DNA of 64,000 bases from assembly GCA_003152075.1 (NCBI GenBank), contig PLZG01000064.1, forward strand, positions 64,031 through 128,030, read 5' to 3'. This stretch comes from a candidate division FCPU426 bacterium. GTDB taxonomy: Bacteria > Oederibacteriota > Muellerivitia > Muellerivitales > Muellerivitaceae. Numbering within the stretch: position 1 is the first letter of the stretch; the number at the start of each line of letters is the position of its first letter. Under the pieces are notes generated by a model. The model was not told the DNA's origin, made no database searches, and saw nothing but the letters and a program-made list of their open reading frames with translations. This document shows, piece after piece, positions 53,633 to 58,086 of the stretch. The translations under genes were made by a program, and so were the position numbers.

Positions 53633-54604
53633 ATGAAATCCAGCATGGTTAAAATGTTCCGGACCGCTTTGGGAATCACGGCTTTCTTATTCGTGGGCTG
53701 CTCCCAAAAGAACGGAAGTCCTGTTTCCCCCATCCCAGGCGGGGCGAGTTATTCCGCGCCGACCACCTTGGGTTACCTGACCCAGTGGGGATCGGTTGGA
53801 GCACAGACCGGCCAATTTGATGGAGATTGGGGGGTGGCCGTTGATGCCGCCGGCAATGTCTACGTGGCAGACGGACTGAACAACCGAATCCAAAAATTCA
53901 AGGCTTCCGGTGAATACATGACTTCTTGGGGAGGGCCTGGCGCCGGGAATGGGGCATTGAACAATCCCACGGGCGTGGCGTTGGACCCCTCCGGAAATGT
54001 TTTTGTGACCGATTCGGGCCGTAACCGCATTGAGGAATTCACCGCCTCAGGAAGCTACCTGGCGCAATGGGACGGGGGAACCCTTGGCGGATTTCTCGTC
54101 GCCATCGCGGTGGACGCCTCAGACAACGTTTACGTCTCGGATTTTTCCAACCACGTCATCAAAAAATTCAACGTTCCGGGAGGCCCGGCCACCCAGTGGG
54201 GGACCAAGGGCGCGCAGAACGGCCAGCTGACTTATCCAGTTGGCGTTGCGGTGGACGGGAGGGGTAACTTGTTTGTGGCGGACGCCGGAAACAACCGTAT
54301 TCAGGAATTCACCGGCGAAGGAGATTACCTGACCCAATGGGGCGGAACTGGCAACTTGAACGGCCAATTCAACTGGCCTTACGGGGTGGCCACCGACTCC
54401 ACGGGGCATGTTTTCGTGGTCGATGAGGATAACAACCGTGTCCAGAAGTTCGATGGATCGGGAGCCTATATGACCCAATGGGCAGGGGACTGGAAAGCAT
54501 CAGACCAATTCGACATGCCGGCGGGCATCGCCGTAGCCTCTTCGGGTGATGTCTACGTGACGGATACGGGAAACAATCGCATCCTGGTGTTACAACCTAA
54601 ATAA
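53633..54604 (+). CDS. NHL-repeat lipoprotein
   Basis: A 323-residue lipoprotein. The lipobox ending in FVGC places the Cys at about 23. Six NHL repeats follow with regular units such as GVAVDAAGNVYVADGLNNRI and GVAVDGRGNLFVADAGNNRI, enough for a closed six-bladed propeller. Unlike other lipoproteins in this window, the spacer is very short. It probably binds a ligand at the surface. Monocistronic. Confidence 0.87.
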   Translation: MKSSMVKMFRTALGITAFLFVGCSQKNGSPVSPIPGGASYSAPTTLGYLTQWGSVGAQTGQFDGDWGVAVDAAGNVYVADGLNNRIQKFKASGEYMTSWGGPGAGNGALNNPTGVALDPSGNVFVTDSGRNRIEEFTASGSYLAQWDGGTLGGFLVAIAVDASDNVYVSDFSNHVIKKFNVPGGPATQWGTKGAQNGQLTYPVGVAVDGRGNLFVADAGNNRIQEFTGEGDYLTQWGGTGNLNGQFNWPYGVATDSTGHVFVVDEDNNRVQKFDGSGAYMTQWAGDWKASDQFDMPAGIAVASSGDVYVTDTGNNRILVLQPK

Positions 54605-54754: not shown

Positions 54755-55465
54755 ATGCGTAATCGGTTTTGGTTGATATGTTTGATGACAGTCACCACCG
54801 GAATAGGTTTGGCGCGCGCGGAGGGACAAAAGTCCAAGTCCGGAGGAATCCTTACCGGACACCTGAAAGTCACCGCCCCCTATCGGAAAGCTCCTCCCCC
54901 CAGCTTGGCCTCCGGTGAAAAAGATGAATATGGTTACGGCCATAAATCCTATGGGACCCAAACCCACACCCTGCCGGAGCAAGTCGTCATTTATCTCAAA
55001 AAAGTAAAAGGAAGATTCAGCCCCCCCACGAAGCATGTCCCACTGGACCAAAAATACCTCCAGTTTACCCATCGTGTACTTCCCGTTCTCAGGGGAACAA
55101 CGGTGGATTTCACGAACCACGACCCGGTTTACCACAATGTCTTCACCAATTCCCAATCCAACAAATTCGATTTGGGGCGTAAACGGAACGGCGAAACGGT
55201 GTCGGTGAAAATGACGAAATCGGAAGTGCCGGTAAAGGTTTATTGCGAAATCCACGCGGCGATGAAGGCCTACGTCCTCGTCCTCGACAATCCTTTCTTC
55301 ACGACGGTTGGACCCGACCAAACTTTTGAGATCAAGGGAATACCCCCGGGGACCTACACCATGGTGGCCTGGCATGATTTCTGGGCGCCTGTCGAGCAAA
55401 AGGTGAGGATCAAAAAGGGAAAAACCACGCAAGCGGACGTTACCATGGACAAGGTGCAAGAGTGA
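54755..55465 (+). CDS. Exported cupredoxin-like (methylamine utilization-type) protein
   Basis: A 236-residue protein with signal peptide (1-22). The core (about 105-180) is a cupredoxin with a complete type-1 copper set: His127 (VYHNVF), Cys164, His167 and Met170 (VYCEIHAAM). The N-terminal and C-terminal parts are beta-rich; the C-terminal PPGTYTMVAWHDFWAP resembles a carboxypeptidase-regulatory-like turn. It likely binds copper and carries electrons in the periplasm. Its last codon overlaps the GTG start of the cyclase, which implies coupled translation and a shared role. Confidence 0.85.
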   Translation: MRNRFWLICLMTVTTGIGLARAEGQKSKSGGILTGHLKVTAPYRKAPPPSLASGEKDEYGYGHKSYGTQTHTLPEQVVIYLKKVKGRFSPPTKHVPLDQKYLQFTHRVLPVLRGTTVDFTNHDPVYHNVFTNSQSNKFDLGRKRNGETVSVKMTKSEVPVKVYCEIHAAMKAYVLVLDNPFFTTVGPDQTFEIKGIPPGTYTMVAWHDFWAPVEQKVRIKKGKTTQADVTMDKVQE

Positions 55466-57303
55466 GCCAGCCCCTACGCCCCCGGTTCCGATTAAGGGAC
55501 AAACTGCTTTTCGCCGTTACCCTTCTCGTGGTGGTTTTGATCTCGACGGTCCTTTACATACTTAACGAGCGCCTGCAATCTGAAAACTTGAACGCCTTGA
55601 GCGCTGACCTGAACCGGACCTTTTCTGTTTTCGCCAGTTTTGTCAACCAAGAGACGGAGAATTTGAAGGACAAGGCTATCTTCATGTCGGGCCTGCCGCG
55701 CCTTACCGCCGCCCTGGACGTGCGTAAGCCCAAGTTTTCCGCCATGTCGGCCACCGTCAGTGAATTGTGCCTGGACCTGGGTGATTCGGTGAAGACGCCA
55801 CCCCTTTTCATCGTGACAGACAAGGCCGGGAAAGTTCTTTTTGATTCCCATCACCCGCCAGAGGAGATCCTGGCTTTGAGGGCGGGAAGGGAGCCCGATC
55901 CGAATAGAAAATCAAGCGGGGAGCCGGTCCTGGCCGACGGCTGGCCTAACGTTAGGGCCGCCCTCAAGGGAAATCCAAGCCAAGGTGGATTTCTCTATAA
56001 AGATGTTCCGGTCTCCGGCAAGGAACAAGTGACTGCCTATCAAGCGGTGACCTATCCCATTCAAAACCGCAGGGGCGGGGATGTGTTGGGTGTCCTTATC
56101 CTGGGTGTGGCGCTGGACAAACCGCTGGCCGAGAATATGAAGAAAATGACGGACAGTGAAATCGTCTTTTTCATCAACAAGCAGGTTTTCGCCTCCACCT
56201 GGCCCGAAGACAAGTATCAGTCTTTGGCTACAAAGCTTTCGCCCATGATTCCCTCCGCGGAAATGTGGAAGGACAACCTCACCTCTCCTTCCGTGCAGGT
56301 ATCCCTCAATGAGGAAATGTACCAAGGCCGTTTCGCCCCTTTCAAGGACACCCAAAATCAGTTACTGGGGAATTACGCCATCCTCCGGTCCGAGGATAAG
56401 GCCTTGGCCGTCCAGAAAAACCTCCAGCAAACCATCATCATCATCGGGATTTTAGGCGTTGTCGTCGCCTTTGGAATGGCCCTTTTCATCGCCGGCCGCA
56501 TCACCGAGCCATTGAACAGCCTGGTTTTTGGCGTGCAGGAAATCGCCAAGGGAAACTTGACGATCCAGGTGCCGGTGAAGACCCATGACGAGCTGGGGGT
56601 CCTGGCCCAATCCTTCAATGAAATGACCCAGGGTTTGAAGGAAAAAGAACGTGTGACCAACATCCTGGGGAAATATATTTCACCCGAGGTGGCCAAGAAA
56701 GTGCTGGCGGATAGGGATGGGCTGGCGCTCAAGGGTGAGCGGCGGGAATGCGTCGTGATGTTCACCGATATCCGTGGTTTCACCGCCATGAGCGAGAACG
56801 AGCCGCCGGAGAAGATCGTGGCGGACTTGAACGAGTATTTCACCCTCATGGTGGATGTGGTCATTAAGTACGAAGGGACCCTGGATAAATTTATCGGGGA
56901 CGCCATCATGGCCGTCTGGGGAGCGCCAGTGCCCTTTGAGGACAAGGATTTAAGGGCGGTAAAGGCCGCCCTTGAAATGCAGGATGTGCTGGCGAAATTC
57001 AACCTGGTCCGCCAAGTGAAAAAGCTCACTCCCGTTACCATGGGAATCGGCATCAACACGGGTGTGGTAGTTTCGGGCAACTTAGGATCGGATAAGCGCA
57101 CCGATTACACGGTTATCGGCGAGGAAGTGAACCTGGCTTCCCGGATTTGCGCTAAGGCCGCGCCGGGGCAGACCCTGATATCAGATTTTACATACCGAAA
57201 GTTAAAAGGGCAGGTGGTGGTGAAGGTCCTGGAACCTGTTTCCCTTAAGGGCTTCACCGAACCCGTCAAGGTTTACGAGGTCACCGGTTTGACGGGTAAT
57301 TGA
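55462..57303 (+). CDS. Membrane adenylate/guanylate cyclase with Cache-like sensor and HAMP
   Basis: A 613-residue receptor cyclase. TM1 is at about 15-34. A periplasmic sensor of about 280 residues looks like a Cache domain (TPPLFIVTDKAGKVLFDSH). TM2 is at about 320-342, then HAMP to about 394. The catalytic domain follows (about 415-600): FTDIRGFT and KFIGDAIMAVWG supply metal Asp residues and Lys, RTDYTVIGEEVNLASRI the substrate-specifying Asp plus Asn and Arg, consistent with cAMP production. It starts at GTG inside the cupredoxin stop. The periplasmic sensor could respond to the cupredoxin or its redox state, which is inference. Confidence 0.9.
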   Translation: MSQPLRPRFRLRDKLLFAVTLLVVVLISTVLYILNERLQSENLNALSADLNRTFSVFASFVNQETENLKDKAIFMSGLPRLTAALDVRKPKFSAMSATVSELCLDLGDSVKTPPLFIVTDKAGKVLFDSHHPPEEILALRAGREPDPNRKSSGEPVLADGWPNVRAALKGNPSQGGFLYKDVPVSGKEQVTAYQAVTYPIQNRRGGDVLGVLILGVALDKPLAENMKKMTDSEIVFFINKQVFASTWPEDKYQSLATKLSPMIPSAEMWKDNLTSPSVQVSLNEEMYQGRFAPFKDTQNQLLGNYAILRSEDKALAVQKNLQQTIIIIGILGVVVAFGMALFIAGRITEPLNSLVFGVQEIAKGNLTIQVPVKTHDELGVLAQSFNEMTQGLKEKERVTNILGKYISPEVAKKVLADRDGLALKGERRECVVMFTDIRGFTAMSENEPPEKIVADLNEYFTLMVDVVIKYEGTLDKFIGDAIMAVWGAPVPFEDKDLRAVKAALEMQDVLAKFNLVRQVKKLTPVTMGIGINTGVVVSGNLGSDKRTDYTVIGEEVNLASRICAKAAPGQTLISDFTYRKLKGQVVVKVLEPVSLKGFTEPVKVYEVTGLTGN

Positions 57304-57321
57304 AAAATTGAGGAGGAAGTC

Positions 57322-57714
57322 ATGAAGAAACTTAGGTTTTTGTTAGGCGTTTTCGCGCTGGCCATGTTGGCGTGTCCTGCTATCGCGGATGAAATGAATG
57401 AAAAGCACGCCAAGATCACGGAAAAGTCGGATAGCAAAGCCATGAAATGCGAAGTGATCGACGTGGCTTGTTATATCGCCAAGGGGGCTAAGGGTGAGGG
57501 GCACCAAGGCTGCGCGGCCAAATGTATCGGGGAAGGCGGGGAGTTGGCCTTACTTAATGACGGCAATCTTTACATTCCCGTGGATAAAAACTTCCATTCC
57601 GCCCGCCGGCTGTTTGTCACCAAGGGTGGGGAGATGGTGAACGTGAGTGGCAAAAAAGTTGAGAAAAGCGGCCTCAGGTTCATCGTCGTCGACGGGGCGG
57701 AAAAAAAGAAGTAG
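57322..57714 (+). CDS. Exported small Cys-containing protein
   Basis: A 130-residue protein with signal peptide (about 1-22). Cys43, Cys50, Cys64 and Cys68 together with His61 (DVACYIAKGAKGEGHQGCAAKC) form a compact cluster resembling an uncharacterised family of exported proteins that begin E-V-x-D-x-A-C-Y. Copper or iron-sulfur binding is plausible. GAGGAGG lies before the ATG, 18 bases after the cyclase. Third gene of the operon; a terminator follows. Confidence 0.82.
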   Translation: MKKLRFLLGVFALAMLACPAIADEMNEKHAKITEKSDSKAMKCEVIDVACYIAKGAKGEGHQGCAAKCIGEGGELALLNDGNLYIPVDKNFHSARRLFVTKGGEMVNVSGKKVEKSGLRFIVVDGAEKKK

Positions 57715-57747
57715 AACTAAGGTAGTTCATGGCTTGAAAATAAACTT

Positions 57748-57780
57748 TAAAGGCCCTGGAAAATTTCCTAGGGCCTTTAT
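57748..57780 (+). terminator. Terminator of the cupredoxin-cyclase operon
   Basis: TAAAGGCCCTGGA pairs with TCCTAGGGCCTTTA, one mismatch, with a T-run following. It closes the 54755-57714 operon. Confidence 0.9.
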
Positions 57781-57798: not shown

Positions 57799-58086
57799 AT
57801 GAAAACTGGGCACCTTGAATTTGCCGAAACGGATGTGGAACAAAAAGAAGAACTGGGTAATCCCTGGCAGGTTGTGCTCTTCAACGATGAGGTCCATAGT
57901 ATTGACGAAGTTGTCTTACAAATACAAAAAGCCACAGGCTATTCCTTGGAGAGGGCCGTGGATATCACTTTGCGCGTCCACAACAACGGCAAGGCGGTGG
58001 TTTACATCGGTTCCAAAGCGGATTGCGAGAAGGTGGCAGGTGTGTTGAATCAAATAAAGCTTATCGTCCAGGTGGAAAAAACCTGA
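57799..58086 (+). CDS. ClpS-like adaptor protein
   Basis: A 95-residue protein. WQVVLFNDEVHSIDEVVLQIQ matches the ClpS N-end-rule adaptor start (V-x-L-x-N-D-x-x-x-T/S), and ITLRVHNNGKAVVYIGSK gives the following V-H-x-x-G-K-A. It would deliver substrates to a ClpA/C protease. No clpA/C is adjacent. The N-terminal 20 residues are acidic. It is its own unit after the operon terminator. Confidence 0.87.
   Translation: MKTGHLEFAETDVEQKEELGNPWQVVLFNDEVHSIDEVVLQIQKATGYSLERAVDITLRVHNNGKAVVYIGSKADCEKVAGVLNQIKLIVQVEKT

Follow-up and report, generated by a model that had tools for sequence, protein, structure and literature searches.

A type-1 cupredoxin gene coupled to a dCache receptor adenylate cyclase gene in a candidate division FCPU426 bacterium, and recurrence of the pair with different predicted outputs in other phyla

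The known roles of cupredoxins are those of electron carrier and enzyme domain, and their type-1 copper sites are built for electron transfer, not for storage. In Rhodobacter, the periplasmic copper-binding protein PrrC/Sco is thought to tell the membrane sensor PrrB about the respiratory state. Another periplasmic protein that acts with a membrane receptor is LuxP of Vibrio, which is soluble and has as its partner LuxQ, a receptor with a double Cache periplasmic part. Receptor class III adenylate cyclases with a Cache-HAMP-cyclase architecture, their cyclase domain resembling those of CyaB, CyaC and CyaB1, are likewise described. A census of Cache domains reports histidine kinases, MCPs, GGDEF proteins and, rarely, adenylate cyclases and Ser/Thr kinases as outputs of dCache_3 (four adenylate cyclases and one Ser/Thr kinase), and leaves cupredoxins unmentioned (PMC4822843). 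Our search of the openly licensed PMC literature found no paper in which a cupredoxin and a Cache receptor are described as partners.

The locus described here lies in a stretch of 64,000 nucleotides from a candidate division FCPU426 bacterium, referred to as the window. ORF and domain analysis placed the genes for a cupredoxin and a receptor cyclase at 54755-57303, with a gene for a Cys-rich protein and a terminator downstream (Table 1). A previous sequence-only reading had described these as one operon, and all of its elements were found again: the three ORFs, the first of them encoding an exported protein with a complete type-1 copper site, the GTG start of the cyclase gene that overlaps the cupredoxin stop, the small exported third protein with its signal peptide, and the hairpin with its T run. 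The gene upstream of the unit, across a gap of 150 bp, encodes an exported protein with six NHL repeats (53633-54604). Right after the terminator follows a ClpS-like protein (57799-58086), apparently as a separate unit.

Table 1. Positions of the features of the cupredoxin-cyclase locus, numbered from the first letter of the window
Feature	Position	Strand	Remark
Cupredoxin, 236 aa: signal peptide, type-1 copper domain, C-terminal carboxypeptidase-regulatory-like beta-sandwich	54755..55465	+	
Codons of copper ligands His127, Cys164, His167, Met170	55133..55264	+	
GTGA overlap, cyclase start over cupredoxin stop (4 nt; translational coupling)	55462..55465	+	
Receptor adenylate cyclase (predicted), 613 aa: TM - dCache - TM - HAMP - class III cyclase	55462..57303	+	
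Periplasmic dCache sensor domain, about residues 35-318	55564..56415	+	
HAMP domain, residues 342-393	56485..56640	+	
Class III cyclase domain, residues 428-606	56743..57279	+	
Small exported Cys-rich protein, 130 aa	57322..57714	+	co-directional, 18 nt downstream
Intrinsic-terminator-like hairpin: 12 pairs, then T run	57748..57779	+	

The first protein has the hallmarks of a type-1 (blue) cupredoxin. Pfam Copper-bind was matched above its cut-off at residues 98-176 (E 1.4e-4), and the C-terminal sandwich matched CarboxypepD_reg/fn3_3. The ligand set His127, Cys164, His167 and Met170 has the spacing C-x2-H-x2-M, which we take to be that of amicyanin. In its AlphaFold model (pLDDT 85), the protein has structural matches to amicyanin, NirK and plastocyanin, the one to amicyanin with E 1e-6 and a TM score by target of about 0.7. 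Fold and ligands thus agree in assigning the protein to the type-1 class, and copper binding is predicted. All four ligands are kept in the sensor-linked homologs for which data exist, the one exception being a genome of the same order (G023, see below). Three of them, Cys164, His167 and Met170, were absent from the search patterns and are invariant in the complete homologs other than that of G023.

The second protein was predicted to be a Cache-HAMP-cyclase, and the Pfam matches bear this out, with dCache_3, HAMP and Guanylate_cyc all above their cut-offs. The dCache domain is located between two transmembrane helices, and its AlphaFold2 model matches McpB, DctB and LuxQ. In an alignment of the cyclase domain we found the metal-binding aspartates (D436, D480), the transition-state residues (N557, R561) and, at the positions that from general knowledge of CyaB1/CyaC we presume to specify adenine, K476 and T550. 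The closest solved cyclases are 6fht, 2w01 and 3r5g. By these sequence features, the protein is a putative class III adenylate cyclase. A cAMP pathway in this genome is plausible, because the active site of the cyclase is intact and the genome contains 18 matches to cNMP-binding domains.

The sensor domain itself offers little to hold a metal. No column of the dCache alignment of homologs contained more than 30% His, Cys or Met, and a metal or redox signal would therefore need the cupredoxin as its holder. For the same reason, we rejected the dCache receptor as a metal binder in its own right. A copper two-component sensor of the CusS/CopS type was also considered and discarded, as the cztS_silS_copS match in the HAMP region was weak (28.6 bits versus a cut-off of 292.55) and the sensor has no conserved His, Met or Cys.

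The cupredoxin-cyclase pair is conserved in the FCPU426 family. It is present in six family relatives (65-80% identity), where the genes mostly overlap by 4 nt or leave a short gap. The two genes are adjacent in every relative with a near complete genome, and their adjacency is therefore not due to chance. This conservation backs the earlier view of cupredoxin and receptor cyclase as a single unit. More distant versions of the pair were found in two further genomes of the phylum (G002 and G023). The records of four close relatives (L058-L060, L062) name candidate division FCPU426. A fifth, L061, is named Proteobacteria in its record (Centralia_MAG_561), but its cupredoxin and cyclase are about 73-76% identical to those of the window and it belongs to the same family as the FCPU426 genomes; its label is probably wrong. 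One relative has a second cupredoxin copy behind the cyclase gene (L035, G027:C89, 2063-5302; 4-nt overlap, then 1-nt gap), which is a local duplication. M16 peptidases beside the pair in FCPU426 relatives (G027) were set aside as not common to the unit across phyla.

In G023, the pair is degenerate, with both ORFs still open (L040, G023:C11, 8343-10821). In the cupredoxin, the ligand Cys and the first His are gone; the cyclase carries D480F, N557Q and R561F. Such joint erosion would fit a function shared by both halves; it is a single case, in a locus that could be decaying.

The third gene is not a conserved part of the unit, as opposed to what the sequence-only reading had proposed. The mature part of its product contains four Cys and one His, with H-x2-C-x3-C among them. 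No Pfam family was matched, the family being without a Pfam model, and comparison with solved structures found nothing meaningful. Orthologs exist in all six pair-carrying family relatives, in five of them elsewhere in the genome (G025, G027, G028, G029, G030). The gene adjoins the pair only in the window genome (G000) and in G024, i.e. in two of the seven pair-carrying family genomes, and on opposite sides, as it is located upstream of the pair in G024. We therefore rejected the Cys-rich protein as a component. A gene order unique to this contig would have refuted the earlier proposal; in this check the pair of cupredoxin and receptor held up strongly. The three-gene set as such is almost unique to this genome.

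Paralogs of the Cys-rich protein in its own genome point to copper. They are encoded with a multicopper oxidase and with a CusCBA-like RND/P-type ATPase cluster, so that the protein belongs to a copper-associated family. Both paralogs (L044, G000:C64, 1089-1613; L045, G000:C110, 8529-9044) have a C-terminal tail resembling metal-binding sequences, and their clusters hold the multicopper oxidase, YHS proteins, RND efflux and P-type ATPase genes. These copper and heavy-metal clusters, together with the exported type-1 site, could suggest that the cupredoxin buffers or chaperones copper in the periplasm, and that its gene shares no more than its expression with that of a stress-sensing receptor. 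We consider this improbable, as the Cys-rich gene has no conserved place next to the pair, copper efflux genes were not seen adjoining the pair in the relatives examined, and type-1 sites suit electron transfer better than storage.

Pairing of the cupredoxin with a dCache receptor extends far beyond FCPU426. The cupredoxin alone served as the query against 84,980 species genomes, and 77 loci in about ten phyla were obtained (Acidobacteria, Eisenbacteria, Myxococcota, Balneolales and other Bacteroidetes, KSB1, Gemmatimonadetes, Latescibacterota, Coatesbacteria, and others). With ORFs called and checked by tblastn, 74 loci were readable downstream. A dCache(-HAMP) receptor, adjacent or one gene away, was found downstream of the cupredoxin in 67 of them. 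The remaining seven comprise three loci with a beta-barrel next to the cupredoxin (L069, L078, L082) and four without a sensor (L086, L100, L115, L134). Spacing is tight, with at most 20 nt in 47 of the 61 directly adjacent pairs and a 4-nt overlap in 21 of the 61.

The receptors differ in their outputs. Among the 67, we counted 27 adenylate cyclases, 23 histidine kinases (9 of these followed by an NtrC-type response regulator), 9 Ser/Thr kinases and 8 HD-GYP proteins. Plasmids of Caballeronia and Novosphingobium encode a cupredoxin, automatically named "methylamine utilization protein," followed by a dCache_3-HAMP-GGDEF-EAL protein. The plasmid cluster (L136, 3524-7833; also L137 and L138) contains in addition genes for DUF3034 and a group 1 truncated haemoglobin, which points to a possible connection with NO/O2 or haem redox. 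Judged by gene content, the constant unit is cupredoxin plus dCache, and the cyclase is one exchangeable output. The earlier proposal of a system that reports through cAMP therefore stands only in part: a cAMP output is supported by the intact catalytic residues and the cNMP-binding-domain matches, but the system is not cAMP-based in essence, since in related pairs a histidine kinase, a Ser/Thr kinase, HD-GYP or GGDEF-EAL takes the place of the cyclase.

The association also holds in the reverse direction. A cupredoxin profile and a sensor profile were run independently on 99 genomes around a Balneolaceae genome. All full-length sensors (22/22, E below 1e-57) were located directly downstream of a cupredoxin match; the other sensor matches were partial and weak (E 1e-18 to 1e-22). 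Conversely, a sensor was found downstream in 25 of 26 loci with a cupredoxin above 200 bits and was mostly missing next to lower-scoring relatives, a cut-off that partly selects sensor-linked cupredoxins, as the profile was built mainly from such members; the neighbor gene itself played no part in the search. Chance neighborhood or an annotation artefact, for which one could cite the near uniqueness of the three-gene set as such, is already contradicted by how consistently the cupredoxin and receptor genes occur together in different phyla (67/74 forward, 22/22 reverse), and its probability is negligible.

More distant cupredoxins of the same family have no sensor, and some are encoded beside cytochrome oxidase or SCO genes. 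Electron transfer is therefore plausible as the original role of the family. The sequences indicate that, within a cupredoxin family that resembles electron carriers, one subfamily is linked to dCache receptors.

Cupredoxin and dCache domain appear to share much of their history. We counted at least 8 changes of output type on the cupredoxin tree and at least 7 on the dCache tree, both being quick trees with several weak forks. Cupredoxin and dCache distances are correlated (Spearman 0.48, and 0.25 among pairs with different outputs), and permutations within output types never reached the observed correlations (0/999). As the distances correlate beyond these permutations while the outputs change, cupredoxin and dCache seem largely to have travelled together while outputs were swapped, although organismal history may share in the correlation.

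Outside FCPU426, an outer membrane beta-barrel of 350-410 aa, encoded upstream or downstream of the pair, is the usual third partner (in Balneolales, Bacteroidetes, Eisenbacteria and Acidobacteria). Profile comparisons relate the barrels from most positions to each other (97-99.8% probability for most pairs, lower for comparisons involving the HD-GYP group), in a setting where barrel profile scores run high in general. This recurrent barrel family has no Pfam model (L092, 9360-10532; L124, 9213-10448; L068, 5526-6752; and similar). In four acidobacterial loci (L069, L078, L082, L188), cupredoxin and barrel occur with a receptor neither between them nor adjacent. The barrel gene is absent from the FCPU426 operons, and the Cys-rich protein, third in the window locus, is not such a barrel.

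The main rival explanation starts from such neighbors. The cupredoxin, elsewhere together with the barrel, could be an envelope electron carrier or part of a machine for nutrient or metal uptake, whose use the dCache receptor would control by sensing an unrelated small ligand. The two genes would then be linked as a regulon, and not as co-receptor and receptor. Distant homologs beside cytochrome oxidase or SCO genes would fit, as would the barrel as a frequent and sometimes sole neighbor, the truncated haemoglobin alongside the GGDEF-EAL version, and the binding of small ligands by most dCache domains (PMC4822843 and general knowledge). However, a second-messenger, Ser/Thr kinase or HD-GYP output has no action on the operon that encodes it, and yet the pairing in these loci is as tight as in the histidine kinase/NtrC loci. 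Moreover, the cupredoxin accompanies every full-length sensor, while the barrel is variable, and the short, often overlapping gene spacing suggests stoichiometric co-production. On balance, we regard this explanation as rather unlikely.

We lean slightly towards a two-protein envelope sensor, in which the cupredoxin serves as a dedicated, obligate periplasmic co-receptor of the dCache domain. The partnership of the two genes is well supported. We infer copper or redox as the signal, physical contact, copper binding and the direction of regulation; metal or redox sensing through the cupredoxin, as first proposed, is still a reasonable assumption. At the sequence level, the co-receptor is supported by the anatomy of the two proteins, the reciprocity of their association, the exchange of outputs, the conservation of the copper ligands and the intact cyclase site. 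The sensor-less distant cupredoxins, the barrel-only loci and the G023 pair without a copper site count against it. According to the co-receptor model, periplasmic copper or an electron carrier would set the copper occupancy or redox state of the cupredoxin, which would alter its engagement with the dCache domain. The change would pass through the second transmembrane helix and the HAMP domain to the class III cyclase, and cAMP would act on CRP-like proteins. The input pair would be the same in other phyla but would drive kinases or c-di-GMP enzymes there, usually beside an outer membrane beta-barrel. The broader proposal is that type-1 cupredoxins acting as redox- or copper-gated co-receptors form a widespread, undescribed envelope module that usually includes the barrel and has exchangeable outputs (cAMP, phosphorelay, Ser/Thr kinase, c-di-GMP); here we judge the case to be evenly balanced.

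Recurrence of the pair in many phyla suggests an undescribed route by which copper or redox state is reported from the envelope to the cell interior. If this is true, blue copper would be a signaling cofactor and a cupredoxin the input half of a receptor, and in many phyla the cAMP, c-di-GMP and kinase networks would have a direct link to the redox or copper state of the envelope. The model offers a specific candidate input for a group of dCache receptors that lacks a known ligand, and a function for proteins that are now named "methylamine utilization protein" or "carboxypeptidase regulatory-like domain protein." As there are five output types, one hypothesis is testable in whichever system is easiest.

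Among described systems, LuxP-LuxQ is similar in its layout. The model of the window sensor matches LuxQ, a dCache receptor whose complex with soluble periplasmic LuxP has been solved, and the pairing of full-length sensors with a soluble periplasmic partner has a counterpart here at the level of genes. Unlike in Vibrio, the partner is a type-1 cupredoxin and not a sugar-binding-type protein, and the outputs include cyclase, Ser/Thr kinase, HD-GYP and GGDEF-EAL. The LuxP fold being different, we rejected membership in the LuxP/LuxQ type and consider the pair as a possible functional analogue only. PrrC/Sco-PrrB differs in that Sco has a thioredoxin fold, PrrB lacks a dCache domain, and there is a single output type. 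Receptor class III adenylate cyclases with a cyclase domain like that of CyaB, CyaC and CyaB1 share the catalytic residues, but not the constant cupredoxin partner. Amicyanin, plastocyanin and NirK share the cupredoxin fold and the four ligands, whereas the protein described here has an extra C-terminal beta-sandwich, and its gene is linked to receptors, not to methylamine dehydrogenase or respiration. The plasmid pair of Caballeronia and Novosphingobium has the same order of cupredoxin and dCache_3-HAMP receptor, but a GGDEF-EAL output, DUF3034 and truncated haemoglobin alongside, and automatic names only. Every domain of the pair is of a known kind; their combination and its spread appear to be new.
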